Assembly (NCBI RefSeq): GCF_000152985.1
Contig: NZ_CH672395.1
Span: 1,501,145 to 1,565,144, forward strand
Reading direction: 5' to 3'
Source: Leeuwenhoekiella blandensis MED217
Lineage (GTDB): Bacteria > Bacteroidota > Bacteroidia > Flavobacteriales > Flavobacteriaceae
Length of the DNA stretch: 64,000 nt
Numbering within the stretch: the stretch's first letter is position 1; each line of letters begins with the position of its first letter. The notes under the pieces are model-generated. The model did not search any database and was not told where the DNA came from. It saw only the letters and a list, made by a program, of their open reading frames with translations. Shown here piece after piece: positions 37,169-55,637 of this stretch. The position numbers were made by a program, and so were the translations under genes.

Positions 37169-37243
37169 ATTCACAACGCTAAAGGCTTAAATGCTTTATA
37201 ATATTACCATTGCATCTCAATCAATAAAGTACAAGTATTTTTA

Positions 37244-37280
37244 CCATTCGTCTACACTTAAGTTCCATTCGTCTACACTT
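37244..37280 (+). promoter_or_regulatory. LytTR-type direct repeat upstream of the H-NOX operon
   Basis: Two identical 16-mers CCATTCGTCTACACTT start at 37244 and 37265, exactly 21 bp apart, so they fall on the same face of the helix. LytTR regulators bind pairs of short direct repeats about two turns apart, and the known AlgR site contains CCGTTCGTC. The proximal copy starts 61 bp before TGAATTTT (37326), a poor -7 match in the same place where related promoters have a better one. Binding by the operon's own LytTR protein (43231-43950) would give autoregulation. Confidence 0.7.
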
Positions 37281-37384
37281 CTTTTTGGTTTCATCGCTTT
37301 TAACCAATAATCGCTCTAAGATTTCTGAATTTTACACGCGCGAAAAACCTTGTATTTAGCGCACCCAACTCAAATCAAAAGTAA

Positions 37385-37801
37385 ATGAAAAAGAAAGTGC
37401 TATCTATTTTACTCATTGAGGATGACCGTATTGAGGTAATGAAGCTCAAACGTGTGTTATCTAAGGAAGCTTTAAATCATAAATTGATAGAGGCCAAAAA
37501 CGGCGAAGAGGCTTTGACGCTCTTACGTGATAAAAGCATTTTGCCTGATCTTATTTTGCTAGACCTCAATATGCCTAAAATAGACGGAATTGAGTTTTTG
37601 AAGATCTTAAAGGCAGATGATACGTTTAAATACATTCCTACCGTGGTGCTCACCACATCCAGCAATCATAACGATGTAAAGCAATGCTATGAGATCGGAA
37701 TCGCGGGATATGTGCTCAAACCCTTGAAGTACGAAGATTATGTTACTAAATTATCCGGATTATTGAATTACTGGAGTCTTAACGAATTAATTCATCTCTA
37801 A
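37385..37801 (+). CDS. Receiver-only response regulator
   Basis: This 138-residue protein is a single receiver domain with the acidic group E12-D13-D14, phospho-acceptor D60 in LLLDLNMPKIDG, the conserved Thr in VLTTSS and Lys in YVLKPL. It has no output domain. Its size and LNMP motif resemble the Rcp1/CheY-like group that works with phytochrome-type kinases. As first gene of the operon that also encodes two kinases without receivers and an Hpt protein, it fits the Asp step of a phosphorelay. Its stop overlaps the H-NOX start by one base (TAATG). Confidence 0.93.
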   Translation: MKKKVLSILLIEDDRIEVMKLKRVLSKEALNHKLIEAKNGEEALTLLRDKSILPDLILLDLNMPKIDGIEFLKILKADDTFKYIPTVVLTTSSNHNDVKQCYEIGIAGYVLKPLKYEDYVTKLSGLLNYWSLNELIHL

Positions 37802-38367
37802 TGAAAGGTATTGTTTTTACAGAATTTTTAGAACTGGTTGAAGAGAAGTTTGGGATCGAGATGGTCGATGAGATCATTACGGCTTCAAACTTGGAATCGG
37901 GAGGTGCGTATACTGCTGTAGGGACCTACAAATTTGTAGAAATGATCAATTTGTTGACGGCTTTAAGTGCGCGTACACAATTAAGCATAGATGAGTTGCT
38001 TTATATCTATGCGCAGCATTTTTTTAAAGTGATTAAGTCAAGTTATGCGGCACTCTTAAATACGTATAGCGATCCGTTAGAACTTTTAGCTTCTATTGAA
38101 GATCATATTCACGTGGAAGTGCGTAAAATTTACCCTGATTCGCAACTTCCTACCTTTAAGACGATTAAAAGGTCAGAAAATACCTTAGTTTTAGATTATC
38201 ATTCAAGTAGAGCCATGTATAATTTTGGTCTTGGGCTTATGCACGAGACCTTTAAACATTTTGGTTTTGAACATAAGGTGACATTCGAGAAAATTAAAGA
38301 AGATGGCACGCACGTGCGATTTTTTATAGAAAAGGGAGATGACCACAAAAGATCCGGAACTATATAA
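37801..38367 (+). CDS. H-NOX haem-based nitric oxide sensor
   Basis: This 188-residue protein is a stand-alone H-NOX domain. It begins MKGIVFTEFLELVEEKFG and carries the proximal haem ligand in DHIHVEVRKIYPDS (H104) and the haem-propionate motif YxSxR as Y133-H-S135-S-R137. If aligned without gaps to O2-binding H-NOX proteins, the distal Tyr position holds Phe142, as expected for an NO-selective sensor. Stand-alone H-NOX proteins inhibit or modulate a partner histidine kinase encoded next to them when NO binds. The neighbouring kinase overlaps it by 29 bases. Confidence 0.93.
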   Translation: MKGIVFTEFLELVEEKFGIEMVDEIITASNLESGGAYTAVGTYKFVEMINLLTALSARTQLSIDELLYIYAQHFFKVIKSSYAALLNTYSDPLELLASIEDHIHVEVRKIYPDSQLPTFKTIKRSENTLVLDYHSSRAMYNFGLGLMHETFKHFGFEHKVTFEKIKEDGTHVRFFIEKGDDHKRSGTI

Positions 38368-40714
38368 AAGACTTGTAGAGCGCGAGCGCAAAGCGCGTAA
38401 GATGGCTGAGTCAATTTTGGAGAAAAAATCTTCAGAACTTTATGCGCTTTCTCAAGAACTTCAGAAATCAAATGACAAGCTTCAGTCGTTAATCTATCAA
38501 AAGAATACCGAGCTTCAGGGCGTATTTGAAAACTTAGTAGACGCCTATGTTGTGATCGATGTTGAAGGCCATGTGCTCAAGATGAATGATGCTGCAGTCG
38601 CCTTGCTAGAATATGATCCTACCAAAGAACCGGTGTTTTTACCAGCTTTGGTTTTACCAGAAGAGCAGGAGCTTGTAGCTGAAGCCTTTAAAGGTTTGTT
38701 GAAAAAAGGAAGCATTACCGATTTTAAGGTAAGCATTCGTACAAAAACCGGGGCGATTAGACGCGTACACATCAATGCGAGTACTATTGTAGATGAGAAC
38801 AATAAAGCGATCGTAGCGCAGGGAATTGTACGAGATATCACCGATGAAGAGCGCAAAGCCCGTATTATCGATGAGCAAAAGCGACAACTGGAGTTTATCG
38901 TAAATAACTCGCCATTAGGTATTGCTTTAACTACAGATGGCATAATAGAAAAGTGTAATGCCAGTTTTACCAGAATCCTAGGCTATCCTGAAGATCGAAT
39001 AATTGGTAAAGATTTGAAATCGATTACCATTGCAGCAGAGCAATCAGATTATGAGGAAAAGCGAAAGGATTTGCATAAAGGAGCTTTTGATTCTTTTGTC
39101 ACCACACAGAAATACATCACCAGCTCGGGACAGATCATTACGACCAAGATCAATGTGAGCGCTGTGCGCAATCACGATAACCACACCCGTACGCAAGAAG
39201 TAATTACGGTTGAAGATGTGACCAAAGAACTCTTGGCCCGAGAACAACTCGTAGAATCAGAAAACCGGCTATCTGCACTTATTTCTCGACTGCAAAGCGG
39301 TGTTTTACTAGAAAATGAAGACCGGGCAATCGTGCTTACCAATCAAATGTTTTGTGACATGTTCGGCATTCCTGTGAAGCCTGAACATATGCAAGGTTTA
39401 GATTGCTCCAATGCTGCGGAAGAAAACAAGCATCTTTTTAAAAATCCCGAGCAATTTGTAAGCCGCATTACTCAAATCGTAGCCGAGCGCCAGCTGGTTA
39501 CCGGAGATGAATTAGAATTGCTAGACGGTCGAATTTTTGAAAGGGATTTTGTTCCTATTTTCTCAAACGGCCAATACAAAGGACATTTATGGAGTTATAC
39601 CGATGTTACTGTCACGCGCCGATACAAGAACGACTTGCAACAGCAAAAAGAAAAGTACAGTAACATTATTGCAAATATGAATCTTGGTTTGCTCGAAGTA
39701 GATACCGAAGATCGTATCCTGCTCGCAAATCAAAGTTTTAGTGAGATTAGTGGTTACGACTCTAGCGAACTGATAGGCAAGAAAGCAGCAGAGGTTTTTA
39801 TGAAACCAAGTGATGCTGTTCAAGTCTTAAAAAAGAATGACCTGCGGGAAAAAGGGATTTCAGACTCTTATGAAATCGAAGTCTTTAACAAGGCAGGGGA
39901 GAAGCGCAATTGGTTGATAAGCGGGGCGCCTAATTTTGACATTAACGGGAAATTGGTGGGTTCTATAGGAATTCATCTTGATATTACAACGCTCAAAGAC
40001 TTAGAAGCGCAAAAGGAATCTTTGCTCAACACCTTAGAAAAAAGCAATCGGGAATTGCAAGAATATGCGCACGTGGTTTCTCATGATTTGAAGAGTCCGT
40101 TGCGTAGTATCAACGCCCTTGCCAGCTGGATCAAAGAAGATAACTTAGAGCATCTGGATGAGCAGAGTTTGGAGAATTTCAGCATATTGGAGAACACTTT
40201 AGAGAAGATGGAAGGCTTGATCTCCGGGATTTTGAATTACAGCAGCATTCAACGTGAGAATATTCAGGATGAAGAGGTAAGTATTAAAGAGGTGATTGAG
40301 GATATTGAAACCTTGCTTTATATTCCCGAACATATAGAATTGATCGTTCCTGATGATTTACCCATTGTGAACGTAGACAGAACACGCATACAACAAGTAT
40401 TTCAGAATTTAATCAGTAATGCGATTCGCTACAGCAATAAGGAAAAAGGCTTGATTAGAATACACTATACCGAAGAAGCCACCAGACACGTATTTGCCGT
40501 TGAGGATAACGGAATGGGTATTGATAAAATTTACCACGATAAGATCTTTAAGATTTTTCAGTCGCTCACAGATCATAAGGAATCTACAGGAATCGGACTT
40601 TCAATAGTTAAGAAAATTGTTGATCTGTATGATGGTTCGGTTTGGTTAGAAAGCGAGCTAAATGAAGGGTGCACCTTTTATTTCAGTTTAAAAAAAGACG
40701 CTCATGAAAATTAG
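38339..40714 (+). CDS. Multi-PAS sensor histidine kinase, H-NOX partner
   Basis: This 791-residue cytoplasmic kinase has an N-terminal coiled coil (about 8-55), four PAS domains (about 57-170, 185-300, 310-425, 440-550) and a HisKA domain with H-box YAHVVSHDLKSPLRS. The ATPase domain has N-box NLISNAIRYS, VEDNGMGI and STGIGLSIVKK. No TM segment and no fused receiver are present, so it must pass phosphate to a separate protein. The ATG at 38339 follows a good ribosome-binding site (AAAAGGGAG) and lies inside the H-NOX gene, so translation is coupled. This fits direct control of the kinase by H-NOX. Confidence 0.93.
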   Translation: MTTKDPELYKRLVERERKARKMAESILEKKSSELYALSQELQKSNDKLQSLIYQKNTELQGVFENLVDAYVVIDVEGHVLKMNDAAVALLEYDPTKEPVFLPALVLPEEQELVAEAFKGLLKKGSITDFKVSIRTKTGAIRRVHINASTIVDENNKAIVAQGIVRDITDEERKARIIDEQKRQLEFIVNNSPLGIALTTDGIIEKCNASFTRILGYPEDRIIGKDLKSITIAAEQSDYEEKRKDLHKGAFDSFVTTQKYITSSGQIITTKINVSAVRNHDNHTRTQEVITVEDVTKELLAREQLVESENRLSALISRLQSGVLLENEDRAIVLTNQMFCDMFGIPVKPEHMQGLDCSNAAEENKHLFKNPEQFVSRITQIVAERQLVTGDELELLDGRIFERDFVPIFSNGQYKGHLWSYTDVTVTRRYKNDLQQQKEKYSNIIANMNLGLLEVDTEDRILLANQSFSEISGYDSSELIGKKAAEVFMKPSDAVQVLKKNDLREKGISDSYEIEVFNKAGEKRNWLISGAPNFDINGKLVGSIGIHLDITTLKDLEAQKESLLNTLEKSNRELQEYAHVVSHDLKSPLRSINALASWIKEDNLEHLDEQSLENFSILENTLEKMEGLISGILNYSSIQRENIQDEEVSIKEVIEDIETLLYIPEHIELIVPDDLPIVNVDRTRIQQVFQNLISNAIRYSNKEKGLIRIHYTEEATRHVFAVEDNGMGIDKIYHDKIFKIFQSLTDHKESTGIGLSIVKKIVDLYDGSVWLESELNEGCTFYFSLKKDAHEN

Positions 40715-41837
40715 ACAAGGAAATCGGGATGCTTCAGGAAACTGGAATCACAAATCGGAAGCAGTATCATTAAAAAGTCCGTTAGTCTTAATATTTTCTA
40801 ATCGGTTTGTTCTGGAGCAGGAAGCTGTTTTTTCTGAAATGCGCGCGTTATTTCCTGATGGGCATTTGGTCTTTGGGTCGACCTCTGGAGAGATCACGGG
40901 AACTTCGGTACTCAATAACGGCTTGTCGTATACAGCAATTGAGTTTGAAAAAGCCTCTTTTGAGATTGTAACACATTCCATCTTAAAAGAGGATAAAAAC
41001 AGTTTTAAAACCGGAAAGCATCTTGCTGAAAAGTTAGATCAAAAGCTTCTTAAACACGTATTTGTCTTATCTGAAGGAAGCAACGTAAACGGAAGCGAAC
41101 TCATCAAAGGTATAGCTTCAGTGTTACCTGAAGACGTTACGATTACCGGAGGCCTGTGCGGGGATGATGCCCGGTTTGAAAAGACCTTGGCGGCCTATAA
41201 TGAACCTGCAAAGGAAGGAGAAGTGATCGCAATTGGTTTATACGGCGCATCTTTAGAGATTTCATACGCCAATTATGGCGGCTGGTTTTCCTTTGGTCCT
41301 GAGCGGCTCATCACCAAATCGGAAGGTAATGTGCTTTACGAATTAGACCATAAACCTGCATTAGATCTGTATAAGAATTATCTTGGTGAAAAAGCTTCAG
41401 AACTGCCACAGGCATCTTTATTTTACCCGTTAAGCGTTCAATTTAAAGACAAAAAACGACCGCTGGTGCGCACGATTTTAAATATTGATGAAGCTAGCAA
41501 TGCGATGGTTTTGGCCGGCGATGCACCAGAAGGAGCAAAAGTTAAATTGATGATGGCTACGGTTGATGGTATTGTAGACGGTGCGCTGGAAGCAGCCAAA
41601 CGAGCAGTTAAACATCGGGAGCATCCGTGTCAATTGGCTATTCTTGTGAGTTGCGTGGGGCGTAAATTGGTAATGGATCAACGTGTTGAAGAAGAAGTAG
41701 AGGAGGTATGCGAAGTTTTGGGTAATCAAGCGGTGATCTCAGGATTTTACAGTTATGGGGAGTTGGCACCTTTTTCTGATGACCGTATCTGTGAACTGCA
41801 TAATCAGACGATGACACTAACCTTAATAAGTGAGTAG
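40704..41837 (+). CDS. FIST domain protein (NosP-like)
   Basis: This 377-residue protein has FIST_N (about 25-220, with FGSTSGEITG and TGGLCGDDARF) and FIST_C (about 225-370, with LDLYKNYLGEKASELP, SCVGRKLVMDQRVEEE and SGFYSYGELAPF, ending CELHNQTMTLTLI). FIST proteins are sensory; a subgroup named NosP binds haem and NO and regulates co-encoded histidine kinases and Hpt proteins. Several His residues are present in the C-terminal half (H304, H307 and the CELHN His), but I cannot tell which would bind haem. It overlaps the upstream kinase by 11 bases and abuts the next kinase. Confidence 0.9.
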   Translation: MKIRQGNRDASGNWNHKSEAVSLKSPLVLIFSNRFVLEQEAVFSEMRALFPDGHLVFGSTSGEITGTSVLNNGLSYTAIEFEKASFEIVTHSILKEDKNSFKTGKHLAEKLDQKLLKHVFVLSEGSNVNGSELIKGIASVLPEDVTITGGLCGDDARFEKTLAAYNEPAKEGEVIAIGLYGASLEISYANYGGWFSFGPERLITKSEGNVLYELDHKPALDLYKNYLGEKASELPQASLFYPLSVQFKDKKRPLVRTILNIDEASNAMVLAGDAPEGAKVKLMMATVDGIVDGALEAAKRAVKHREHPCQLAILVSCVGRKLVMDQRVEEEVEEVCEVLGNQAVISGFYSYGELAPFSDDRICELHNQTMTLTLISE

Positions 41838-42899
41838 ATGAATGCACTTTTAAAAAGACAACTACGGAAACATCTCCAAAACCAAGGAGTCGATTACAAA
41901 GAAGATCTTGATGTCTTTTTAAATGCAGTAAGTAGCTCGTATACCAATTATGAAGAGCAATTGGCTATGGTGCAGCGCGCGATGGCACTTAGTTCAGACG
42001 AACTTTATGAGGCTAATGAAAGTTTAAGAAAAGAGACCAATCAACAAAAGGAGATCATTAAAAGTCTTACCAATACGATTGCTCAGCTGTATAAACATAG
42101 TAACCCAGAAGATTCTAATCAAAAAATTGAAGAAACCAATCTTGATGCCTTAGAACTGGCGCGCGTGATCGATAACCAAACCCGTGAGATCATTGAGTCA
42201 AACAGACAGCGTGATATTTTATTAGCACAATTAGAGAAGCAGAATAAAGAGCTGAATGATTATGCGCATATCGTTTCGCATGACCTTAAGTCGCCTTTAA
42301 ACAACATCAATGCATTGACCAATTTTTTGATCGAAGATGGTGATGTACGCGGAGACGGTGCAGAAAATCTGGATCTCATTCTGGAGCACGTTGAGCATAT
42401 GCATGACCTTATTCAAGGAATTCTTGAATATTCTGCGATAGACAAAGTAGAAGACGAAGCGTATGCGATCAACTTGAACAAACTGGTAGCACGTTTGATT
42501 GAAACGATGCATATTCCGGCGCATATTGAAGTTTCAATACTGAATCAATTGCCCCTGGTTTATGGGAACTCGTTTCGGTTTCAGCAGTTGTTTCAAAATT
42601 TAATTCAAAATGCGATTCGGTATAATGATAAAGCGCAAGGCTTTGTAAAAATTGACTTCAAAGATCTTGGAACCCGGTATCAATTCAGTATTGCAGATAA
42701 TGGCAATGGTATCGCTCCTTCCTATCACGATAAGATCTTTCAGGTTTTTCAAACGCTCGATAACGATTCTAAACATAAAGGAATAGGACTCTCGATCGTA
42801 TTGAAGATCATTAAATATTATGATGGAGAAATTTGGTTAGAATCAGAACTTCAGCAGGGAACCTCTTTTTTCTTTACCCTGCCCAAACCTAATGCTTAA
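41838..42899 (+). CDS. Sensor histidine kinase without sensory domain, FIST partner
   Basis: This 353-residue cytoplasmic kinase has a long helical/coiled-coil N-terminus (about 1-130) and a HisKA domain with H-box YAHIVSHDLKSPLNN. The ATPase domain has NLIQNAIRYND, IADNGNGI and KGIGLSIVLKI. Its catalytic core is close to that of the multi-PAS kinase, so they are paralogues. It has no PAS, TM or receiver domain; the adjacent FIST protein could supply sensing, as NosP proteins do. ATG at 41838 directly follows the FIST stop (TAGATG). Confidence 0.92.
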   Translation: MNALLKRQLRKHLQNQGVDYKEDLDVFLNAVSSSYTNYEEQLAMVQRAMALSSDELYEANESLRKETNQQKEIIKSLTNTIAQLYKHSNPEDSNQKIEETNLDALELARVIDNQTREIIESNRQRDILLAQLEKQNKELNDYAHIVSHDLKSPLNNINALTNFLIEDGDVRGDGAENLDLILEHVEHMHDLIQGILEYSAIDKVEDEAYAINLNKLVARLIETMHIPAHIEVSILNQLPLVYGNSFRFQQLFQNLIQNAIRYNDKAQGFVKIDFKDLGTRYQFSIADNGNGIAPSYHDKIFQVFQTLDNDSKHKGIGLSIVLKIIKYYDGEIWLESELQQGTSFFFTLPKPNA

Positions 42900-43221
42900 T
42901 ACTATGGATGCGCCTAATTTGCTTAAAATAAAAGAAATCTCAGGAGGTATGACCGACTTTGAGCAGGAGATGCTACAGATCATCAAAGAAGAATTGCCAG
43001 AAGAGATTGAACAGTACCATAGTAATTTAGAGGCCAAAGATTTTTTAAAAACAGCGGGAGATGTTCATAAGCTAAAACATAAAATAAGTATCTTGAACAT
43101 GAAACACGGTTATGAAACTGCCGTTACCTATGAAAATGAGTTGAGAGCAGGCCGCCCTACATCTGCACAAGACTTTGAAGCTGTTTTAAACAAAATGGTA
43201 GTTTTTGTCAACCAACTTTAA
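42892..43221 (+). CDS. Hpt domain phosphotransfer protein
   Basis: This 109-residue helical protein matches the Hpt four-helix bundle. The phospho-acceptor His is H59 in GDVHKLKHKISILNM, corresponding to the canonical HxLKG motif although Gly is replaced by His. It is a single-domain transfer protein that would pass phosphate between the receiver-only protein and the LytTR response regulator. It overlaps the upstream kinase by 8 bases; an internal ATG at 42904 is an alternative start. Many NosP systems contain an Hpt protein. Confidence 0.88.
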   Translation: MLNTMDAPNLLKIKEISGGMTDFEQEMLQIIKEELPEEIEQYHSNLEAKDFLKTAGDVHKLKHKISILNMKHGYETAVTYENELRAGRPTSAQDFEAVLNKMVVFVNQL

Positions 43222-43230
43222 ATCCTACTT

Positions 43231-43950
43231 ATGAATTGCATTATAATCGATGATGAAGCTTTGGCGCGCTCAATAATTCGTAACCACTGTGAGAAAAGCA
43301 CAGATGTTGAGGTTGTAGCACAATTTGAGAATGCGATAAGTGCTATTAAATACTTAAACCAAAACGAGGTTGATCTGATTTTTCTAGATATTCATATGCC
43401 CGACTTTACAGGTTTTGATTTCATTCAAACCTTAAAAAGTCCGCCAAAAATTATTTTAACCACTTCAGATCGCAATTTTGCTATCGAAGCTTTTGAGTAC
43501 GATTGCATTGTAGATTATCTTGTTAAACCGGTAGGATTACCTCGCTTTTTAAAAGCGATTCAGAAAGCGCAGCAATTCTCTTTAACCAGCAAAGAACCTG
43601 CCGCACCCGCAGCAGCCACAGAAGCAAAGCAGGAGGAAGGCAAGGATTTATATATCAATATCGACCGCAGGTTGATCAAGATTGATTTTGACAGCATTTT
43701 AATTATTGAGGCCAAAGGAGATTATATCCTCATCAAAACCGAAGGGAAAAACTATACGGTTCATTCTACCTTAAAGAAGATCGAAGAGAAACTGCCCGAG
43801 AGTAAGTTCTTAAAAATTCACCGGTCTTATGTGATCAATTTTCATAAGATCATCGACATTGAAGACAACAGTGTGTTGATCGCAAAGGATGTGATTCCTA
43901 TTAGCCGTTCAAACCGTCCTATTTTGATGAAGCGTCTTAATTTGCTTTAA
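43231..43950 (+). CDS. LytTR-family response regulator, proposed output of the relay
   Basis: This 239-residue regulator has a receiver domain (D7/D8, phospho-acceptor D53 in FLDIHMPDF, Thr in LTTSDR, Lys in YLVKPV), an Ala/Glu-rich linker (about 124-140) and a LytTR DNA-binding domain (about 142-239, with EAKGDYILI and FLKIHRSYVI). It starts 9 bases after the Hpt gene and ends the operon. Direct repeats of the LytTR type occur upstream of its own operon and in four places in the following surface-polysaccharide region. One distal half-site overlaps its own stop codon. Confidence 0.93.
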   Translation: MNCIIIDDEALARSIIRNHCEKSTDVEVVAQFENAISAIKYLNQNEVDLIFLDIHMPDFTGFDFIQTLKSPPKIILTTSDRNFAIEAFEYDCIVDYLVKPVGLPRFLKAIQKAQQFSLTSKEPAAPAAATEAKQEEGKDLYINIDRRLIKIDFDSILIIEAKGDYILIKTEGKNYTVHSTLKKIEEKLPESKFLKIHRSYVINFHKIIDIEDNSVLIAKDVIPISRSNRPILMKRLNLL

Positions 43951-43979
43951 CGCGTAGCGTTTTCCATTCAACTACACTT
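43943..43979 (+). promoter_or_regulatory. LytTR-type direct repeat upstream of the T9SS protein gene
   Basis: The proximal copy CCATTCAACTACACTT starts at 43964. Its start is 61 bp before the -7 element TAATTTTG (44025-44032). The distal half (TGCTTTAACGCG, 43943) is weaker but 21 bp upstream; it shares TT-N-AACGC with the distal half at 51489 and covers the stop codon of the regulator gene. No TTG lies at -33, which fits an activator-dependent promoter. Confidence 0.6.
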
Positions 43980-44048
43980 AAACGCGACCCACCGAATATT
44001 CAAATTTCAGCGCTTCTAGTCTTTTAATTTTGGATTAAAATCCAGATT

Positions 44049-46487
44049 ATGAGACCTTTTCTAAGTTTAAGCATACTTTTAATTTCGGTGGTTGCCACTG
44101 CTCAAAATTTCAGCTTTTTAGGTGAATATACCTCAGACGGCACACCGCTTTATTTAGAAGCTCAGGATGATGTGGTTACCTCAGAAACGCTTTCGCTTGT
44201 TGCCAGTGCTTTGCCGGAGTCCTATGCGGTGCCTACTTACAATCCGCATTACATCTCTAGTGGTTATGATACAGATGTCATTGTGCATGAAGATGCTGAA
44301 GTCTACGTTACTTTTGTCGCCGAAGGCGCAGGGTATAAAAATGTTCTTGGATTTTATACGTATGATATCAATAATCCGTTAGATCGAAAACCTTACGATC
44401 ACGAGATCACCATAATTTTCCCTAATGTTTCTGCACAAGGTTCCGGCGGTGGTTTAAAGGCCGGAAACAAAGTAAAATTAGGTTCTTTTAAAGCCGGCAC
44501 CGGCATTGGTTGGGTGCTGCTGGCAAATGCCTGGAAGTCTGAAGTTACCTGGGGTTTATGGCAATTGTATTCTAATCCCGATTTTAATCCGGAGGCCGAT
44601 CCTGCTTTGCGTTATCATAACGTGCTGCTCAACGATCCTGAAAATGAACGAATCATTCTAGGTTTTGAAGATATTCGTCGGGACTACAGTTCGTGTGATC
44701 AAGATTTTAATGATGCCTTGTTTTATATTTCAGCCAATCCTTATACGGCTTTAGAAACCAAAAATTATGCTGATGTAGCTTCTGCAACTAAGGTGAATTC
44801 TGCTTACGACGGCGGTTTAGAAAGCAACGGAGACCTGTCTACACTCATTGCAAAGCGCAATTTGAACCGAAGCAAAACAAACGATCAAAAAAATACCAAA
44901 GCAGCCCAGTCCCGATTTAAGAAAAGTAAGTTTCCCTCAAAAAACGGCACTTCAAACCTGGCGTCATATTTTGGTGAAACAGCACTTTTTGGCACCGAAA
45001 CAGCTGCTGTTGCGAGTCCGTCTGACTTGCAAGACATCACTAATGCTTCAGGTATTTTTGCGATTGATTACTATCAAGGAGAAGATCGTGTCGTAGCAGG
45101 TCTGTTGCTCAAGACCGAAGACCGCGTGTATGATCACGCCAAAACGATTTGTGACCGATTGAATGGAGCAACTCTTGATGACATTCGTAGGTTTCAACTG
45201 CGGGGACATCAGTTTATTTTAGCTGAAATTTTACGAGCTAACGGACTCAAAGAATATGCTGTGAGCTTTTCGGTAAATCAGAGCGATGCTGCACAAACGC
45301 TTTACAGTTACTGGAATATTGATCAATATCCGGAAGGTGACTATTTAAACTTTCAATTTTGGGGAACTTCAGTAGCGCAGGTGAGTAGCCTTATAAATTA
45401 TGCTTTAGATGTTTTAGAGCAATCAGGAGGCTTAAACAGCGACCCCAATACTACCTATAAATTACCCGAGGTATTTGTCAAAAGCGGATATTACAGCCGC
45501 GGTGCCCTTGTTTTAAATCTGTGTAATAAAACAGGAGTAAAAACACTTGTGGCAGAAACTAATAAGCGTGCAACCGAAACTGATAGTTTAGAAAACACGG
45601 TGCAAAACTTAAGCCTTAGCGGCGCGTATGAAGAGCAGGTTATCTTAGAAACCGGATATTTATTTGATGTTGGTGTATCGCTTACAGATGCTCAAACAGG
45701 TAGTTACGATGCTTTGTACCTTGCAGACGGACCTTGGGGTATCGACTATAATCAAACTGAAGCAAACCTGACCGATTTTATCATCGACCAAGCTGTTGAA
45801 GTTGCAGAAGGAGATGCTTACAGTATTGAACGCAATGTTTCACTTAATGCAGAAGTAAAGGGGACGTTTAATATTTTTAGACACATTCTCGCCGGTGAGT
45901 TGGCGCTTGATGTGCGTGATTTATCTGCTCTTGAATTTGAGCTGGAAACCAATGTTCCTGTTGAAGTTATTCTGGTTCCGGCAAACCTTGAAGATTGGTC
46001 AAACAGGCTGCGTTATACGCTACCGGCATCTCAAGAAAATCAATTTTATGCAATTCCTTTTGACGAATTTAAAAATGCATCTGGTGAGGCTCAAAGTGTG
46101 ACCGCGATACGCAGTGTTGTATTTTCTGTACAGGGTGATTATATCAATTTTCAGTCAGCAGCGGTGAGATTAAAAAATCTGGCATTTAGCAATAATCGCA
46201 GTCTTTCTGTAGAAGCGATAGCTCAAGAACTTCAAAGCACGCAGGTACATAATTATCCCAATCCTTTTACGCAGTACACCTTGATCAAACTTCCGGCTCC
46301 TGCTGTAGAAGCAGCCATCGAGCTTGTAGATATGAATGGACGCAAGGTGGTTTCAAAAAAGAGAAAAACTTCAGGCAATCAAAATACACTTCGCCTGGAT
46401 CGAGACGGTTTACCTACCGGTTTATACAGTTATGCAGTGACCACAGATACCGGTAATATATATAATGGAAAGTTACTTATAAATTAG
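44049..46487 (+). CDS. T9SS-secreted DUF4114 surface protein
   Basis: This 812-residue protein has a signal peptide ending VVATAQ and a DUF4114 domain (about 85-230) with the Asp-rich motif SSCDQDFNDALFYI that suggests Ca2+ binding. A middle region without a family I recognise follows. The C-terminal type A sorting domain (about 732-812, NYPNPFTQYT and DGLPTGLYSYAV) directs export by the type IX system and attachment to the surface through lipopolysaccharide. It is likely an adhesin or matrix protein. It follows the regulator gene by 98 bases and has the proposed LytTR promoter, ending at a strong terminator. Confidence 0.88.
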   Translation: MRPFLSLSILLISVVATAQNFSFLGEYTSDGTPLYLEAQDDVVTSETLSLVASALPESYAVPTYNPHYISSGYDTDVIVHEDAEVYVTFVAEGAGYKNVLGFYTYDINNPLDRKPYDHEITIIFPNVSAQGSGGGLKAGNKVKLGSFKAGTGIGWVLLANAWKSEVTWGLWQLYSNPDFNPEADPALRYHNVLLNDPENERIILGFEDIRRDYSSCDQDFNDALFYISANPYTALETKNYADVASATKVNSAYDGGLESNGDLSTLIAKRNLNRSKTNDQKNTKAAQSRFKKSKFPSKNGTSNLASYFGETALFGTETAAVASPSDLQDITNASGIFAIDYYQGEDRVVAGLLLKTEDRVYDHAKTICDRLNGATLDDIRRFQLRGHQFILAEILRANGLKEYAVSFSVNQSDAAQTLYSYWNIDQYPEGDYLNFQFWGTSVAQVSSLINYALDVLEQSGGLNSDPNTTYKLPEVFVKSGYYSRGALVLNLCNKTGVKTLVAETNKRATETDSLENTVQNLSLSGAYEEQVILETGYLFDVGVSLTDAQTGSYDALYLADGPWGIDYNQTEANLTDFIIDQAVEVAEGDAYSIERNVSLNAEVKGTFNIFRHILAGELALDVRDLSALEFELETNVPVEVILVPANLEDWSNRLRYTLPASQENQFYAIPFDEFKNASGEAQSVTAIRSVVFSVQGDYINFQSAAVRLKNLAFSNNRSLSVEAIAQELQSTQVHNYPNPFTQYTLIKLPAPAVEAAIELVDMNGRKVVSKKRKTSGNQNTLRLDRDGLPTGLYSYAVTTDTGNIYNGKLLIN

Positions 46488-47524: not shown

Positions 47525-49570
47525 TTACTTGAAAAGCGGCTTAGCAAAAGGCTGCCATCTTAAGCTTAAACCAACTTCTCCAAACTCAAAACCACTGGCT
47601 ACAGCCGAGGCGATGTTACTGTATTGCGCATAAAGGCCGAGATCAAATTGATTACTGAAACTGTAGCGTACATTCACTTCAGCTCTAAAAATAGAGGTAG
47701 CTTCTTGATCTTCTACAAATTGACGACCGCCGGCAGCAACTGTATGAATAGTAAGGTTTTCTGCAGGCTTAAGCAGTAGATCTGCAAAAAGCTCTGCCGC
47801 CTGATATTTAGACGGACTGAAATACAAAGCATTCACCTGATCTTTATAACTCAGATATTGATAGTTGAAGCCCATTTTAAGCGCAGGCTTACGTGTGAGG
47901 GAATAATACAACGAGGTAAATAACAATTTACGGTTGTTTTCGTCAGATTGTGCGGTATAGATCATAGACGTGTACCAACCCAGACGTGTTGTAATTCCCC
48001 AGTTGTAATTCAAGAAATAATCATTCAAGGCTATTTTTTCTTGTAGTAGCGCAGCATTAAAATTCTGTAAAGCTCTGCGATAACCAAACTCTGCTTGCTG
48101 GCGTTTAAAGGGTTTTGCTTGTAAGCTTATTCCGCCTTGTGTATCGGTATATTCATTTTCATTGGTACTTGCTTTAATGAGTCCGGCGTTGGCTTTAAAA
48201 TTTAAGCCCGGCATTATGCGATATTCTAGATTAGCGCCAAGTTCATAGGCCGTAGCCTCTTCGCCACTTATACCGTTGCGGGTGATACGATAACCGTATT
48301 GAGCACCAATTTTAAACGCAGTAGAAAAAGGTAGCGCAGCATTAAAGCCGTAGCTATATGCCTGGTTTTCTCCATTATCTTTGGTTAAAGAAGCACGTGC
48401 GCCTAGTTCTGGAGCGTACGATAGATCTAAAGTTTTGATCAAACCTAAAGCATCTTTTTGCCCCTCATAGTAGTCAAGTGTTTTTTGAGCGAAAGCATAT
48501 GCCTGCAGCGGATTATCGCTTGCACGATAGGCATTAGCAATCCCCAAATTGCCGTCAAAGGAAGTCGAATCTTGCGCTAAAATTTGCTGATAGTTTTTTA
48601 CTGAAGCTTTAAAATCGCCGGTATACATCCCTAACATCGCTTTTAACGCTAAAAGGGTCTTGTGATCTGTATAAGTTGAATCTAATGCTTTGATCGTTTG
48701 GTTGGCTTCAGCATACTTTGCATTCCAGACTAAAGCTTGAACATAACGCTCTGCTGCTTGAAGACGCACTAAAGAGTCGGTTTTCTTTTGCTTACTTAAA
48801 GTATAGGCTTCCGTCGCTTGTTGCAATGCCTGTTGTTCTTCCTCTTGCAAATGAGCAACAAGTGCTAAACCTATTTTCCCGGTGATGCTGTCATTACTAT
48901 TCTTATTAAAACCAGAATAGATTTTAGCAGCTTCTTCAAAACTTTTGTTGGGTAAATAGATGGCGATAAGATTGAGTTGGGTATCACGATCCTGAGGAAA
49001 ATCTTCAAAATTTGATTGAAGCAATGCAACGGCACTGTCAATTTCTTGACGTTTGGCCAATTGTCCCGCCATTCCTAATTTGATGTATTTATAAGAGACC
49101 TTGGCACTTGGGTTTTCCGCATCAACTTCAAGTGCTTTGTTGATATACACCCGAGCTTCTTGATAGCGTTTTAGGTTTGACAAGGTGTTTGCATAACCCA
49201 ACAATGCCCCAAAATTCTCTGGATGTTCTGCAACGAGCTTTTTATACACAGGAACTGCAGCTTCAAAGTTTTTATTCCATAAAAAGGCTTCGGCATAGTT
49301 TAATTCGATTTCCAGATCACCGGGATAATCGTTACGCATTTCTTCAAATAAAGCTAAGGCTTCCTTTGGTTGACCGCCAAGACCTAAAGCACGTGCATAA
49401 CATAAACGTGCGGTTTTGTTTTGGGGATATTCCTTAAGAATTTTTGCAAAGAACTCTTGAGCTTCTGCGTTCTTTCCGTTTTCAAGATAAGTAAACCCGG
49501 TTTGCATCTCTTGCGCCTGAACACTTATAAATAGTAAAGCACTTACAAGGCATAAATAAACTGTTTTCAT
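47525..49570 (-). CDS. TPR repeat protein with C-terminal outer-membrane beta-barrel (YaiO/PgaA-like architecture)
   Basis: This 681-residue protein has a signal peptide ending SVQAQ, about ten TPR repeats (about 25-370, for example AEAQEFFAKILKEYPQNK) and a C-terminal beta-barrel of about 16 strands (about 375-681). It ends in an outer-membrane strand with aromatic residues (LRWQPFAKPLFK). TPR-plus-barrel proteins such as PgaA, AlgK/E pairs and PelB export exopolysaccharide across the outer membrane. In this gene neighbourhood that is the most likely role. Start ATG 49570 begins the signal peptide; the frame is open to 49603. Confidence 0.8.
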   Translation of the reverse strand: MKTVYLCLVSALLFISVQAQEMQTGFTYLENGKNAEAQEFFAKILKEYPQNKTARLCYARALGLGGQPKEALALFEEMRNDYPGDLEIELNYAEAFLWNKNFEAAVPVYKKLVAEHPENFGALLGYANTLSNLKRYQEARVYINKALEVDAENPSAKVSYKYIKLGMAGQLAKRQEIDSAVALLQSNFEDFPQDRDTQLNLIAIYLPNKSFEEAAKIYSGFNKNSNDSITGKIGLALVAHLQEEEQQALQQATEAYTLSKQKKTDSLVRLQAAERYVQALVWNAKYAEANQTIKALDSTYTDHKTLLALKAMLGMYTGDFKASVKNYQQILAQDSTSFDGNLGIANAYRASDNPLQAYAFAQKTLDYYEGQKDALGLIKTLDLSYAPELGARASLTKDNGENQAYSYGFNAALPFSTAFKIGAQYGYRITRNGISGEEATAYELGANLEYRIMPGLNFKANAGLIKASTNENEYTDTQGGISLQAKPFKRQQAEFGYRRALQNFNAALLQEKIALNDYFLNYNWGITTRLGWYTSMIYTAQSDENNRKLLFTSLYYSLTRKPALKMGFNYQYLSYKDQVNALYFSPSKYQAAELFADLLLKPAENLTIHTVAAGGRQFVEDQEATSIFRAEVNVRYSFSNQFDLGLYAQYSNIASAVASGFEFGEVGLSLRWQPFAKPLFK

Positions 49571-49928
49571 AACTAAGATTTGGTAGGAGCAAGTTAGCCG
49601 CAATACCTTCTTTTTTAATCTACAGCTATGTACAGCTTATCGAAACATAAGCGCATTTCACGGGGAGTACAACTTTTAGAAACGTCAGATTTTGAGTTTG
49701 TTAGTCGATACGTGAGCGATTTCGTCAGGCTTTGTAATTCTTATATATAAGAGGATTGAAGCCTTCTTAGTGTATAACAAATATTTTTTAAAAGGATAGC
49801 ATTGGTTGTTTCGGTTTATCTGCGGGATTTGAACCATTCATCTACACTTAAATTCCGCCGAACGAAATTTTCCGCTGTCGCCTCTCGATGCTCCTCATCT
49901 TTGCTTCATAATCTTTAAATCTTTTGTT
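49571..49928. other. Divergent intergenic region between TPR/barrel and STAS-like genes
   Basis: No coding frame is visible. It contains a palindrome TCTTATATATAAGA (49739-49752) and the LytTR-type repeat at 49812-49849. It also holds a -7-like CATCTTTG (49896-49903) for the plus-strand gene and a TATGTTTC (49649-49642, minus strand) that could serve the TPR/barrel gene. Confidence 0.5.
49812..49849 (+). promoter_or_regulatory. LytTR-type direct repeat upstream of the STAS/flippase unit
   Basis: The proximal copy CCATTCATCTACACTT starts at 49834 and matches the 16-mer at 37244 at 15 of 16 bases. A weaker distal copy CGGTTTATCTGC starts at 49812, 22 bp upstream. The proximal copy starts 62 bp before the -7-like CATCTTTG (49896-49903). 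Confidence 0.65.
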
Positions 49929-50225
49929 ATGTATTCTTTTATCACACAAAACCAGAGCATTCAAATACGTGGAATTTTAAAAGTACAGTCTGTTGGCGAA
50001 CTCGCAGCAACGATCAATGAAGACTTTAGAAATCAAAAGAAGATCACGATCGACCTAAGCGAACTCCAAGAACTTACGTTAAGTACTGTTATGAAGTTGA
50101 TCACTTTGCAAACCAATTACAGAAACAGTGGTAAACTCATCTTGTTTAAAGGCCTTTCTAATAAATCGGTAAGTGGAACCTTCGGCCTTGCCGGAAAGCG
50201 GTACTTGCTGGGAAACGTAGCCTAA
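49929..50225 (+). CDS. STAS-like domain protein
   Basis: This 98-residue protein has the alternating beta-alpha pattern of STAS domains. The strand KKITIDLSELQELTLSTVMK corresponds to the region with the phosphorylatable Ser/Thr of anti-sigma-factor antagonists, here S or T near residues 50-54. It is 22 bases before the flippase gene and probably co-transcribed, so a switch for the polysaccharide machinery by partner binding is possible. The match is by pattern only and is not certain. Confidence 0.6.
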   Translation: MYSFITQNQSIQIRGILKVQSVGELAATINEDFRNQKKITIDLSELQELTLSTVMKLITLQTNYRNSGKLILFKGLSNKSVSGTFGLAGKRYLLGNVA

Positions 50226-50247: not shown

Positions 50248-51495
50248 ATGATAGCGATACCTTTTGTCAAACAGAAAATTTCTGCCCAACAGATTTTTAT
50301 GCTAAGTGCCTTGCTGGTAAATACCGGTAACTACGCTTATAACTTACTTCTTGGGCGCTTGCTTGGCCCTGAAGCTTTTGCCGATGCTGCGATTTTAATC
50401 ACCTTATTATTGGTGTTGTCGTTTGCAGCGATGACGTTTCAATTGGGTACCGCGCGCTTCATCGCACTGCTCGAAGAAGAAAAGCAAGGCGCATTTCTAA
50501 AAAAGATCAATAGATGGAGCCTTCGTATGGGGTTTGCGACAGGACTTGTCTTTGTGTTTTTTGCAAGCTTCTTTCAAGAAGTATTACAAACCTCCTCATC
50601 AATGATGTTTGTGGTTTTTGGCTTGTCTGTTCCGTTCTATTTTGTGATGAGTATCAATCGCGGGATCTATCAAGGAAAACAGGAACTGCTAAGCTTATCA
50701 AAAACCTATCAGATCGAAATGTGGAGCAGGTTACTGCTTACGTTTTTATGCATCTTATTATTTAAAGAACAGCCTGCCATTGGTGTAGCACTGGGAGTGA
50801 GTTTGTCTATTGTAGCGGCACAATTTCCCCGAGCAAAAACCATCAAAACCGATCAGGAAACATTAGATCGCCAATCTACAACTGAAGTCCTCAAGTTTTT
50901 ATCGATCACAGCACTTTATGAAGGAACACAAATTCTTATCAACAACAGTGATATTATTCTTGTAAAGCATTTCTTTGAACCCTATCAAGCAGGATTGTAC
51001 GCCTCGTTGGCATTAATAGGACGCGTGGTGTATTTCGTAGCCTGGATGTTTGTGATGCTGTTGCTTCCGGAAGTGGTAAAGAAGAAAAAAGCAGGAACAC
51101 GTACCACAAAGATTTTATGGAAATACGTGGGTTATATTGGGCTACTTTCGGCAAGTATTGTGGTGGTGTGTTTCGCTTTCCCCAAGATGATCGTCAATTT
51201 GATGTTTGGGCAGGCGTATCTCGAAGTAGCGCATCTTTTAGGCCCTTATGCCTTAGCTACCGGACTTTTTGCAGTGGCAAATCTGTTTACCTATTACTTC
51301 TTATCGCTGGGTAAATACCGGCCTGTATATTTTAGTCTGGTGGGTGGCGCTTTACAAATAAGTGGCGTGCTCTTGTTTCACGACCAATTGTTGCACGTGG
51401 TGTTGGTACAAATTGCCACGATGCTTGTACTTCTTCTGGTACAAGTGGTCTATTGTTTTAAGGAAGAGGGAGTTAGATTAAGTGTTAACCGTTAA
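50248..51495 (+). CDS. Polysaccharide flippase (Wzx/PelG-like, MOP superfamily)
   Basis: This 415-residue integral membrane protein has about 12 TM helices. Its first helix region contains NTGNYAYNLLLGRLLGPEAF, typical of Wzx-type oligosaccharide flippases, and a second half ends near VYCFKEEGVRL. It would move lipid-linked glycans or help a synthase complex across the inner membrane. Together with GT4 and the TPR/barrel protein it resembles parts of the Pel-type system, where PelG has this fold. No Wzy polymerase is visible in the window. Confidence 0.85.
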   Translation: MIAIPFVKQKISAQQIFMLSALLVNTGNYAYNLLLGRLLGPEAFADAAILITLLLVLSFAAMTFQLGTARFIALLEEEKQGAFLKKINRWSLRMGFATGLVFVFFASFFQEVLQTSSSMMFVVFGLSVPFYFVMSINRGIYQGKQELLSLSKTYQIEMWSRLLLTFLCILLFKEQPAIGVALGVSLSIVAAQFPRAKTIKTDQETLDRQSTTEVLKFLSITALYEGTQILINNSDIILVKHFFEPYQAGLYASLALIGRVVYFVAWMFVMLLLPEVVKKKKAGTRTTKILWKYVGYIGLLSASIVVVCFAFPKMIVNLMFGQAYLEVAHLLGPYALATGLFAVANLFTYYFLSLGKYRPVYFSLVGGALQISGVLLFHDQLLHVVLVQIATMLVLLLVQVVYCFKEEGVRLSVNR

Positions 51496-51525
51496 ACGCA
51501 AGTAAAGTACCATTGGTCTACACTA
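51489..51525 (+). promoter_or_regulatory. LytTR-type direct repeat upstream of the GT4 gene
   Basis: The proximal copy CCATTGGTCTACACTA starts at 51510. The distal copy CCGTTAAACGCA starts at 51489, exactly 21 bp upstream, and covers the stop codon of the flippase gene. The proximal copy starts 61 bp before the -7-like CATCTTTG (51571-51578), the same octamer as before the STAS-like gene. Confidence 0.65.
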
Positions 51526-51602
51526 GTCTTCGATCAAACGTATTTCGCAAAAACCAGCTTTATTTCTTTTCATCTTTGAATCAGAATTAAAAACCAAATC
51601 AA

Positions 51603-52814
51603 ATGAAACTAGCACTTGTAACCGCATTTCCGCCCAGTAAAGTAACACTCAATGAGTATGCTTACTATCTGGTGCGCGCTTTTAGAAATCATCAGGAAAT
51701 TGAAGAGTTGATCTTACTTACCGATGTTGAGACCGATGTAGCAGAACAGTACCTTGATGTTTCAGGATGTAAGGTAAGCGTGAAAAAATGTTGGAGCTTT
51801 AACAGCTACAACAGCTTTCCCGGAGTTTTAAAAGCAATACGCCAAACCAAACCAGACGCTGTACTTTTTAATCTTCAGTTTATGAAGTTTGGAGATAAAA
51901 AGATCCCGGCTGCTCTCGGACTTATCTTACCCGGAATTTGCAAAATGATGGGTATTCCTTCCGTAGTATTACTACACAATATTATGGAACAAGTAGATCT
52001 TTCTGAAGCAGGTATCACTCAAAACAAAGTACTTCAAAAAGCATACAATTTCATCGGAAGCGCACTTACGCGTATCCTTTTACAAGCAGATTTTGTTGCC
52101 TTGACGATCAGTAAATATGTAAGCATACTTGAGGAGAAGTACCAAGCAAAAAATATAGGATTAATTCCCCACGGAACGTTTGAATTGCCTGACACCCCTA
52201 ATTATAATGTTCCTCAAGGTCCGCTGCAAGTAATGACTTTTGGCAAGTTCGGAACTTACAAAAAGGTCGAAATGCTTATTGAAGCAGTACAACACTTGAG
52301 AGCGACAACAACGCTAGACCTGGAGATCGTGATCGCGGGGACTGATAATCCTAACGTAAAAGGCTATTTAAAACAGGTAGAACAAAAATATGCACATGTA
52401 GAACAACTGCGTTTTACAGGTTATGTGGAAGAAGCAGAAGTGCCTCGCTTATTTGAAGAAGCTGCTGTAGTTGTTTTCCCCTACACTTCAACTACCGGCA
52501 GCAGCGGGGTATTGCATCAGGCAGGAAGTTACGGCAAAGCGGTTGTCATGCCAGACCTTGGAGATCTGGGTATTTTATCACGAGAAGAAGGCTATCAAGC
52601 CGAGTTTTTTGAACCGAACAATAGTAAGGATTTGGCAGAATCCTTAAAGGTTGTTCTCGAAAATGAAGCCTATCGTGTGGCTATGGGCATGGCCAACTAT
52701 CAAGCAGCAACCGCTTTGCCTATGTCCTGCATCGCAGACAAATATGTAAACGTCTTTAAAGAAATAATGCTTTCAAAACAAGTTAAGACCTCTAAGACTT
52801 TGATTTCAGGATAG
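51603..52814 (+). CDS. Glycosyltransferase family 4
   Basis: This 403-residue GT-B enzyme has an N-terminal acceptor domain (VTAFPPSKVTLNEYAYYLV), the hinge region with IGLIPHGTFELP, and a C-terminal donor domain with TFGKFGTYKKVEMLIEAV and the EX7E-type stretch PYTSTTGSSGVLHQAGSYGK. It adds a sugar from a nucleotide donor to the growing polysaccharide in the cytoplasm. It has its own LytTR-type promoter and a terminator. The sugar is unknown. Confidence 0.9.
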   Translation: MKLALVTAFPPSKVTLNEYAYYLVRAFRNHQEIEELILLTDVETDVAEQYLDVSGCKVSVKKCWSFNSYNSFPGVLKAIRQTKPDAVLFNLQFMKFGDKKIPAALGLILPGICKMMGIPSVVLLHNIMEQVDLSEAGITQNKVLQKAYNFIGSALTRILLQADFVALTISKYVSILEEKYQAKNIGLIPHGTFELPDTPNYNVPQGPLQVMTFGKFGTYKKVEMLIEAVQHLRATTTLDLEIVIAGTDNPNVKGYLKQVEQKYAHVEQLRFTGYVEEAEVPRLFEEAAVVVFPYTSTTGSSGVLHQAGSYGKAVVMPDLGDLGILSREEGYQAEFFEPNNSKDLAESLKVVLENEAYRVAMGMANYQAATALPMSCIADKYVNVFKEIMLSKQVKTSKTLISG

Positions 52815-54423: not shown

Positions 54424-55637
54424 TAGAGGTTTATCTTTTCAATGGTTTTTGAAACTCCCAAAACGGTCACCTTAAGATCATAAATTCCCGGTTTATAAAA
54501 GCTTGTGTTTAATTGAAATTCCACCTTTCCTTCTTGTGTTTTTTTCTCAAGCGTATAGGTGCCTTTTGTGGATTTTAGTTGAAGAACTACCGGCGTTCCT
54601 TCAGCAAGCAATTGCTGTAATTTACCAGTGAGTGGACCAACTTTTACAACAGCCTTTGTTTCGTCCCATTCCAGAGGGAAAGCATCCAGTGCCGGGGCAT
54701 ATGCTATAGTTAAAGCATTACTTTCTGCAATACCGGTAATAAAGGCTTGTACTTCCCAATTTTGTGCGCGGTTAGGATGTAGGATTTGTGCTTGAGCCAC
54801 GCCGTTAAGGGTTGCACCTGAGGTTTGCAAAAGTTGGCTGTCTTGAGTTTTAATTACAAAATTGACCAAAGTTGCGTCAGAAATAAGGTTGCCGTATTGA
54901 TCTTTGATCGTGCCGGTTTTAAACGTCGTGATCTGGTCTGCATCAGCAAAAGGATTTGGACGCTCATACGTTATATTGAAATCAGTCGCTAAATGCGCAT
55001 CTATATAGATCGTTTGCAATTTTGAGGAACGCTCGTTAAGATGAACAGCCGTAAACATGGTTCCGGTTTTTTGAGGAGAGAACAGGTTTTTCCAGGCAAT
55101 TCTGTTTTTTACGGGTAATGTTTCGGTTTGTTGTTGCTCTTTAAATCGGGTTGCAAGCGTTAGGGAAGTAGCGTCGGGGAGGAGGTTGTCATAAACGTCG
55201 GTTGCCAAAAGCGTTAATTGGGCAAAATCGGCGCCACCAGCCAGAATACGCTGCGGACCTAAGTACGATTCGATCGCTGCAATTTTTGAGGTGTCTGGTT
55301 TTATATTCAGGCTACCTTGCATCAATATATTTTTGTTATGAATCAATTTCCAGTCGAGTTTTCCGCTGGCGTTGGCGTAAGGCGCTTGAATTAGAAAGCT
55401 TTTCTGTATGGAAGTAGTTTCCGGTTCTAAAACTGTACTTCCTAGAGCGTTTGAAACCAGCAATTTCAAATCTTCAGCTTCGGTCTCAAAGCGTAATTGT
55501 ACACGATCTTGAGCAACAACTTTTGTTGTTTGGGTAAGCAGCTTTAGAGTAATGGGTTTACGCGCTTGTTCAGGTTTTAAGGTAAAACCAAGCAGCAACA
55601 CACAAAGGCATAAGATATGTATCAGTTTACTTTTCAT
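54420..55637 (-). CDS. Exported protein with repeated Ig-like domains, unknown function
   Basis: This 405-residue protein has a signal peptide (ILCLCVLLLGFTLKP) and four or so beta-sandwich segments of Ig-like type. They include invasin/Big-like stretches such as AGGADFAQLTLLATDVYDNLLPDATSL and TFKTGTIKDQYGNLISDATLV, split here only by unrelated sequence. It overlaps both neighbours by 4 bases (ATGA), so it works with the GH5-like and large membrane proteins, likely as a periplasmic scaffold. No enzymatic motif is visible. Confidence 0.72.
   Translation of the reverse strand: MKSKLIHILCLCVLLLGFTLKPEQARKPITLKLLTQTTKVVAQDRVQLRFETEAEDLKLLVSNALGSTVLEPETTSIQKSFLIQAPYANASGKLDWKLIHNKNILMQGSLNIKPDTSKIAAIESYLGPQRILAGGADFAQLTLLATDVYDNLLPDATSLTLATRFKEQQQTETLPVKNRIAWKNLFSPQKTGTMFTAVHLNERSSKLQTIYIDAHLATDFNITYERPNPFADADQITTFKTGTIKDQYGNLISDATLVNFVIKTQDSQLLQTSGATLNGVAQAQILHPNRAQNWEVQAFITGIAESNALTIAYAPALDAFPLEWDETKAVVKVGPLTGKLQQLLAEGTPVVLQLKSTKGTYTLEKKTQEGKVEFQLNTSFYKPGIYDLKVTVLGVSKTIEKINLY

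Follow-up and report, generated by a model that had tools for sequence, protein, structure and literature searches.

Within the window, a 64,000-nucleotide stretch of the Leeuwenhoekiella blandensis MED217 genome, seven consecutive plus-strand genes probably encode a gas-responsive multistep phosphorelay that acts, by transcription, on its own operon and on surface-matrix genes next to it. More tentatively, with confidence just short of an even chance, we propose that this operon represents a common gas-to-surface switch of the Flavobacteriaceae, in which a core NO relay (REC-H-NOX-HK-Hpt-LytTR) would offer an exchangeable slot to two types of FIST-kinase cassette and would use one LytTR operator to run neighboring genes for secreted proteins and, in some members of the family, for sugar polymers. 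If this proposal is true, the switch would parallel, at the level of transcription, the NO control that proteobacteria exert through c-di-GMP. The relay and its predicted sites suggest a way in which these bacteria may tune their surface matrix in response to a gas and form a complete, testable candidate NO-to-surface circuit (sensor, relay, operator, and targets); a search of the open-licence literature found no description of this operon or of such a circuit for the family.

Gene content and gene order can be read directly from the DNA. The initial annotation had described seven consecutive plus-strand genes at 37385-43950 encoding REC, H-NOX, PAS-kinase, FIST, kinase, Hpt, and REC-LytTR proteins; we found the ORFs at these positions, and all seven products exceeded the curated Pfam cutoffs.

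37385..37801, plus strand: single-domain receiver (REC) with D60 (PF00072, 83.4 bits; D60 in 175/175 operons)
37801..38367, plus strand: H-NOX heme-NO sensor (PF07700, 125.8 bits; H104, Y133-S135-R137, F142)
38339..40714, plus strand: PAS-rich histidine kinase A with H582, the presumed H-NOX partner (Pfam PAS, HisKA, and HATPase_c; phospho-His in 175/175)
40704..41837, plus strand: FIST protein of cassette type 1 (PF08495, 152.5 bits; PF10442 [FIST_C], 118.5 bits)
41838..42899, plus strand: histidine kinase B with H148, the presumed FIST partner (HisKA and HATPase_c, without a Pfam sensory domain; phospho-His in 105/105)
42892..43221, plus strand: Hpt phosphotransfer protein with H59 (PF01627, 31.3 bits; cutoff, 24.6; H59 in 175/175)
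43231..43950, plus strand: REC-LytTR response regulator with D53, the presumed operator binder (Response_reg, 69.8 bits; LytTR, 71.1 bits; cutoff, 22.6)

Successive ORFs meet at junctions of -1, -29, -11, 0, -8, and +9 bases, so that the single gap in the operon is 9 bases long and, with the first ATG used, overlaps extend up to 29 bases. The true start of the Hpt gene may be a later ATG (42904), and the predicted model of Hpt is all-helical (pLDDT, 93.3). Pfam bore out the view that both kinases lack a receiver, and the "PAS4" label given to kinase A is partly borne out, by three significant PAS stretches; for the fourth region (316-429), Pfam gave a PAS_7 match that lacks a significant stretch of its own. 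Positions D60, H59, and D53 had been named correctly and are invariant in 175/175 complete operons, and every residue for a relay from HK to REC to Hpt to LytTR is present in the operon, as had been claimed. The MED217 genome, a single 4.24-Mb contig, contains one gene each for H-NOX and FIST; it also gave four Hpt matches, of which three reach or exceed the family cutoff.

The same arrangement is widespread in the family. H-NOX was found in 146 of 397 sampled Flavobacteriaceae genomes, representing 104 of 237 genera, and in 27 of 395 genomes sampled from the phylum. Our operon set comprised 140 of the 149 H-NOX matches outside this genome, 80 named loci (the best 80 of 578), and the window; of these 221, 201 were distinct after duplicate removal. 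REC, H-NOX, the first kinase, Hpt, and LytTR occurred together in 175 of the 201 distinct Flavobacteriaceae operons, the remaining 26 including cut contigs and divergent forms, and Kordia algicida OT-1 (L214/L123) has the same seven-gene operon. The initial annotation had called for a check of gene order; the order is consistent in relatives, and co-occurrence of H-NOX, FIST, Hpt, and LytTR genes recurs across the Flavobacteriaceae. Since the order recurs across the family, the arrangement is more than chance. First-kinase lengths peak near 400, 535, 660, 700, 790, and 830 residues, with a few near 950. Among matches in the phylum outside the family, seen as 3.5-kb pieces, REC lies directly upstream in L267 and L276 and not in most others. 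One locus (L132) combines a divergent H-NOX with an upstream FIST gene and a hybrid kinase, and another (L047) has a broken FIST of 140 residues. Upstream of the operon in some loci are genes that we take, by eye, to be RuvC- and HemW-like and that look housekeeping. A statistic on FIST genes near hnox is already in print (PMC8738867).

Upstream of the operon lies a repeat with the features of a regulator binding site.

37239..37285, plus strand: predicted LytTR operator of the operon promoter, two direct copies 21 bp apart (32.8 and 28.6 bits), some 105 bases upstream of the REC start

The direct repeat reads CCATTCGTC[G/T]ACACTT, and the 16-mer cores of its copies occupy 37244-37259 and 37265-37280. 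By k-mer counts over 194 promoters upstream of REC, CCATTCGTC was the dominant word, present in 101 (shuffles, 0.0). A weight matrix derived from these same promoters, which makes scanning them partly circular, found at least one site scoring 10 bits or higher in 167/194 and at least two in 83/194; the spacing in the 83 repeat pairs was 21 bp in 81 and 22 bp in 2. A leave-lineage-out matrix (148 operons, non-Leeuwenhoekiella) recovered the same six window sites at 18 to 33 bits, the next best scoring 10.5, and column-permuted matrices gave a window site above 16 bits in 2 of 200 cases. Of 146 genomes with H-NOX, 50 contained the exact 16-mer, as against 2 of 251 without H-NOX (Fisher P = 2e-22, kinship ignored), these two being incomplete (82% and 87%), and the reversed 16-mer occurred in 1 of 397 genomes. 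With five short loci set aside, the motif was present in 158/176 operons with LytTR versus 5/13 without it (P = 4e-5, kinship ignored); of 27 motif-free promoters among the 194, 18 belong to operons with LytTR, and none of three kinase-only operons had the motif. Allowing at most one mismatch to the 15-mer, we found seven places in this genome, five of which are window sites; the other two (G000 1000613 and 3118828) were discarded, as they score below 8 bits and overlap open frames. At up to two mismatches, the short pattern was noise (38 matches versus 41 for the reversed control). Covariation between LytTR residues and operator bases was not above controls. Autoregulatory LytTR systems are described as having direct repeats mostly 12 bp apart (PMC6193735), and a repeat at 21 bp before its own operon is as expected of a LytTR operator, the role that we predict for it.

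The remaining four window sites, which like the promoter repeat are observed directly, each precede an ORF downstream of the operon. They are listed here with neighboring genes.

43959..43984, plus strand: operator copy (23.4 bits) before the gene at 44049
44049..46487, plus strand: secreted DUF4114 protein with a type IX secretion sorting tail, predicted target; in one single-linkage cluster with operator-linked genes of 63 other loci
47525..49603, minus strand: TPR and outer-membrane beta-barrel protein of PgaA-like layout (PgaA model, 60 bits versus a cutoff of 367); no operator site before it in the window scan
49829..49854, plus strand: operator copy (26.0 bits) before the gene at 49929
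49929..50225, plus strand: small STAS-like protein, predicted target (PF13466, 26.4 bits, below the cutoff of 29.2)
50248..51495, plus strand: membrane protein, flippase-like by position and relatives, without a Pfam match of its own; relatives in 46/200 loci
51505..51530, plus strand: operator copy (21.6 bits) before the gene at 51603
51603..52814, plus strand: GT4 glycosyltransferase, predicted target (PF13692 and PF00534)
52900..54423, minus strand: GH5-like glycosidase (PF00150, 54 bits)
55634..58735, minus strand: large protein of 1033 residues with many hydrophobic stretches, predicted target; no Pfam family at a useful score; relatives in 4/200 loci
58798..58823, minus strand: weakest operator copy (18.0 bits; next best in the window, 10.6), before the gene at 55634-58735

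Among the 200 other loci, assigning each site to the longest ORF with a start within 350 bases, we placed 206 of 372 sites of at least 16 bits before the operon REC gene, 142 before other ORFs, and 24 before none; one Markov shuffle of these loci gave 0 sites. Single-linkage BLAST clusters of the nonoperon targets, with families named from one representative each, comprised secreted proteins (63 loci, grouped with the window's), STAS proteins (17 loci, the window's outside), GT4 proteins (13, the window's inside), CAP-domain lipoproteins (11), small proteins without a Pfam family (8), and flippases (5, the window's inside); smaller groups include chain-length-like proteins (3, under the cutoff) and nucleotide-sugar dehydrogenases (2). 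The window STAS-like protein had no significant match among the STAS targets of its relatives, and the genes placed like 50248 differ in that the L087 product matches PF13440 (51.5 bits) and those of L043 and L244 do not. Near the operon, relatives of the secreted protein occur in 87/200 loci, of the flippase in 46/200, and of GT4 in 35/200; among the 182 loci at least 18 kb long, 51 have two or more of six sugar-polymer gene types there. By these counts, the target that recurs is the secreted protein, and polysaccharide genes, although frequent, are in the minority, so that the relay may control polysaccharide in part of the family. With the predicted operator sequence, regulons could be mapped across the family, 146 of 397 sampled genomes of which have H-NOX.

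The FIST gene and the second kinase gene behave as a unit. Both are present in 102 of the 175 operons and neither in 70; the kinase stands alone in 3 and FIST in none, and in two of the kinase-alone operons, both from Tenacibaculum (L231 and L246), a gene for a 377-residue FIST protein is located some 3 kb upstream (the remaining one is L171). This distribution indicates that the two act as one plug-in cassette, and since the pair is missing from 70 otherwise complete operons, it is accessory rather than core. Even within the genus, L. palythoae and L. aestuarii have the cassette and L. aequorea does not. On the operon tree (FastTree of the joined core proteins), cassette presence changed at least 24 times, with 18 changes forced by starred branches, FastTree stars being the least safe kind of support; shuffles averaged 56 changes. 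For 95 type-1 operons, comparison with the REC/Hpt/LytTR tree gave distance correlations (r) of 0.81 for FIST, 0.93 for the second kinase, and 0.86 for H-NOX, with 35, 43, and 36 of 92 splits in common, respectively. The similar agreement of these three trees fits mostly vertical descent with repeated loss. In nine operons, the same slot holds a second, distantly related cassette type, which changed 5 times on the tree (7 of the 9 operons included). Its FIST proteins have 364 to 366 residues and match the window FIST at 21 to 25% over about 190 residues; the one tried, from L152, passes both the FIST and FIST_C cutoffs. The first 100 residues of the type-2 kinases match only each other, and the start of the window kinase B matches 105 of 115 second kinases and 0 of 9 of type 2. 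A GAF-like start of the type-2 kinases, guessed by eye, was dropped for want of Pfam support. In Aquimarina (L219, type 2), kinase B and Hpt are naturally fused, the fused Hpt scoring 22.6 bits (below the Pfam cutoff of 24.6) with its His motif kept. The cassette offers a natural experiment in which a relay gains or loses inputs and keeps its output.

The two candidate NO sensors of the initial annotation fared differently. For H-NOX, a role as an NO sensor is well supported by sequence comparison: the protein far exceeds the PF07700 cutoff (25.5 bits) and is 63% identical to K. algicida H-NOX (L214), the printed chain of solved structure 6bdd (E = 1.3e-72). What we take to be the proximal heme His (H104) and the YxSxR motif (Y133-S135-R137) are conserved (H104, 174/175; Y133, 175/175; S135, 175/175; R137, 170/175), and residue 142, presumably the distal position, is F in 131, L in 42, M in 1, and Y in 1 of the 175. 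For FIST, such a role is possible. The protein passes the FIST (23.2 bits) and FIST_C (28.5 bits) cutoffs and scores 59 bits against the NosP equivalog NF041558, whose cutoff is 450; having missed that cutoff, it can be called only a putative heme/NO binder. Its neighbor, kinase B, shows the NosP trait of an adjoining kinase without a sensory domain. The FIST AlphaFold model (pLDDT, 93.1) is nearest to FBXO22 among solved folds (TM, 0.46 to 0.55), and the sequence matched no solved chain at an E value of 1. H366 is the sole His present in at least 93% of 103 type-1 FIST proteins (103/103); two Azospirillum relatives keep it, and all nine type-2 proteins have Tyr or Phe there. A tie of the operon to NO metabolism was rejected, NosZ-like genes occurring in 3 of 200 loci. 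This genome has no NirK (Cu-nitrite reductase) over the cutoff (one weak match, 43.8 versus 296 bits) and no match to RIC protein, so any NO would be external.

We propose that heme-loaded H-NOX would sense NO and modulate kinase A and that the FIST protein, where present, would modulate kinase B. Both kinases would phosphorylate the stand-alone receiver at D60, from which phosphate would pass to H59 of Hpt and on to D53 of LytTR; we infer this direction of flow from the parts. Phosphorylated LytTR would then bind the repeats, including the promoter pair; it would thereby activate its own operon in positive feedback and, here, the genes for the type IX-secreted protein, the STAS-like/flippase-like pair, the glycosyltransferase, and the large membrane protein. 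In Vibrio fischeri, the syp polysaccharide locus is activated by HahK, which NO inhibits by way of HnoX (PMC12369376). By analogy, NO probably inhibits kinase A, in which case the target genes would be on without NO and off with it.

Alternatives at the sensor level carry different weights. That H-NOX responds mainly to oxidation or O2 rather than NO appears very unlikely; although oxidants elicit a response from V. cholerae H-NOX that lacks heme (PMC8738867), the distal Tyr that accompanies O2 binding is missing from the presumed distal position 142 in 174 of 175 operons, and the K. algicida pocket favored NO in simulation (PMC7356049). We take more seriously, at somewhat under an even chance, the idea that the FIST arm senses a non-NO signal (heme, redox state, or another ligand), so that the operon merges two different signals. 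The missed NosP cutoff, the replacement of invariant type-1 H366 by Tyr or Phe in type-2 proteins of the same slot, the resemblance to FBXO22, and the response of the V. cholerae FIST protein CdpA to heme (PMC8846402) all favor this idea, whereas the placement of FIST beside a kinase free of sensory domains is the NosP-NosK layout (PMC12570481).

Downstream, the operon parts would also serve a branched relay, in which the kinases also phosphorylate LytTR directly and the stand-alone receiver and Hpt act as a phosphate sink or buffer. Coupling analysis with one operon per row revealed no clear interface between Hpt and the stand-alone receiver, and when both kinases were pooled, the top score was slightly higher for the LytTR receiver (5.4) than for the stand-alone receiver (4.8), and the couplings were not concentrated on the receiver surface where contacts were expected (observed 5, expected 4.6; observed 4, expected 5.4). 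Against branching, kinase A coupled better to the stand-alone receiver than to the LytTR receiver (8.0 versus 6.5, one operon per row), and the Hpt-LytTR receiver pair was the top of 20 pairings (11.7), its coupling forming a helix-1 patch (S14~I30, I16~I65, N18~E26); in this set, background was high, with nonpartners reaching 11.0 (the two receivers together) and 9.8 (H-NOX and the DNA-binding domain). Likeness of the kinase DHp domains as a sign of a common receiver gave a null result, with no excess similarity of kinases A and B from the same over different operons (0.483 and 0.485). The coupling results were thus mixed as to the route; we consider branching unlikely and the linear route from HK through REC and Hpt to LytTR plausible. 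It also seems rather unlikely that LytTR represses its targets or that another regulator binds the repeat. Five of the 13 operons without LytTR keep the motif, two of them with LytTR elsewhere in the locus; set against this, a direct repeat with a 21-bp period is typical of LytTR regulators (PMC6193735), the window sites end about 67 to 105 bases before start codons, and hardly any genome without H-NOX contains the exact word. We favor activation by LytTR through a linear relay, a scheme in which the predicted operator and its likely targets are additions to the initial annotation.

Shewanella oneidensis reportedly joins two NO sensors, H-NOX/HnoK and NosP, in one network; the two have separate gene locations. 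That network includes HnoX-HnoK-HnoB, and its output is c-di-GMP metabolism (PMC8846402), in contrast to the LytTR output here. Burkholderia NosP-NosK-NosR resembles the window operon in that a FIST protein adjoins a kinase without a recognized sensory domain (PMC12570481), but the window FIST falls far below the NosP cutoff and lies inside an H-NOX operon with a LytTR output. Kordia algicida H-NOX (PDB 6bdd and 6bde) is of the same type as the window's, and the cited text treats the isolated protein (PMC7356049). LytTR regulatory systems are likewise autoregulated via direct repeats, a feature predicted here with a 21-bp period, but they pair the regulator with a membrane protein (PMC6193735), whereas the window LytTR is a response regulator behind a relay. 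Closest in effect is the V. fischeri HnoX-HahK-SypF/LuxU-SypG-syp system, in which an H-NOX/kinase operon likewise feeds an Hpt step and then a DNA-binding regulator in control of a polysaccharide locus; there, HahK itself carries a receiver (D506), SypF or LuxU supplies the Hpt step, and the passages cited make no mention of a FIST cassette such as that in the window operon (PMC12369376). In the window, each step is a separate protein encoded in one operon beside its predicted targets. What sets the window operon apart is this separate-protein relay in one operon, the FIST cassettes, the LytTR output, and the local targets, the last two as predicted here.

The first kinase of the operon (38339-40714 in the window) and its relatives vary from 400 to 950 residues, and the lengths fall in rough steps. 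Judged from these lengths, it looks as if the number of PAS domains differs between species and underlies the steps. For the second kinase, an Aquimarina locus (L219) carries the type-2 form, naturally fused with the Hpt protein (12863-14347).

FIST genes also occurred outside the operon. Two Tenacibaculum loci, L231 and L246, each carry one ~3 kb upstream of the operon (5321-6454 and 5329-6462, respectively), and the operon itself has the second kinase and no internal FIST gene. The predicted LytTR operator motif was absent from the operon promoters of both loci; an operator-like site scoring 16.6 bits in L246 belongs to the upstream FIST gene itself. The exact operator 16-mer was also found in two sampled genomes without an H-NOX match, G048 and G158, both incomplete (82% and 87%). 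One contig of Tamlana nanhaiensis holds two operon copies (L242 and L243), identical in the parts compared, which reflects either a duplication or an assembly artefact.

Among neighboring genes, the window contains the following:

47525-49603, reverse strand, PgaA-like TPR/beta-barrel protein, between a secreted-protein gene and sugar genes

This protein had matches in 94 of the 200 loci compared, some perhaps through TPR repeats alone. Nitrous-oxide reductase-like genes share the locus with the operon in 3 of the 200 (L128, L138, and L244), and the L244 protein contains the Pfam propeller repeat of nitrous-oxide reductase. Azospirillum plasmids (L280 and L281) encode a FIST protein ~40% identical to that of the window, with genes for a PAS kinase and response regulator alongside.
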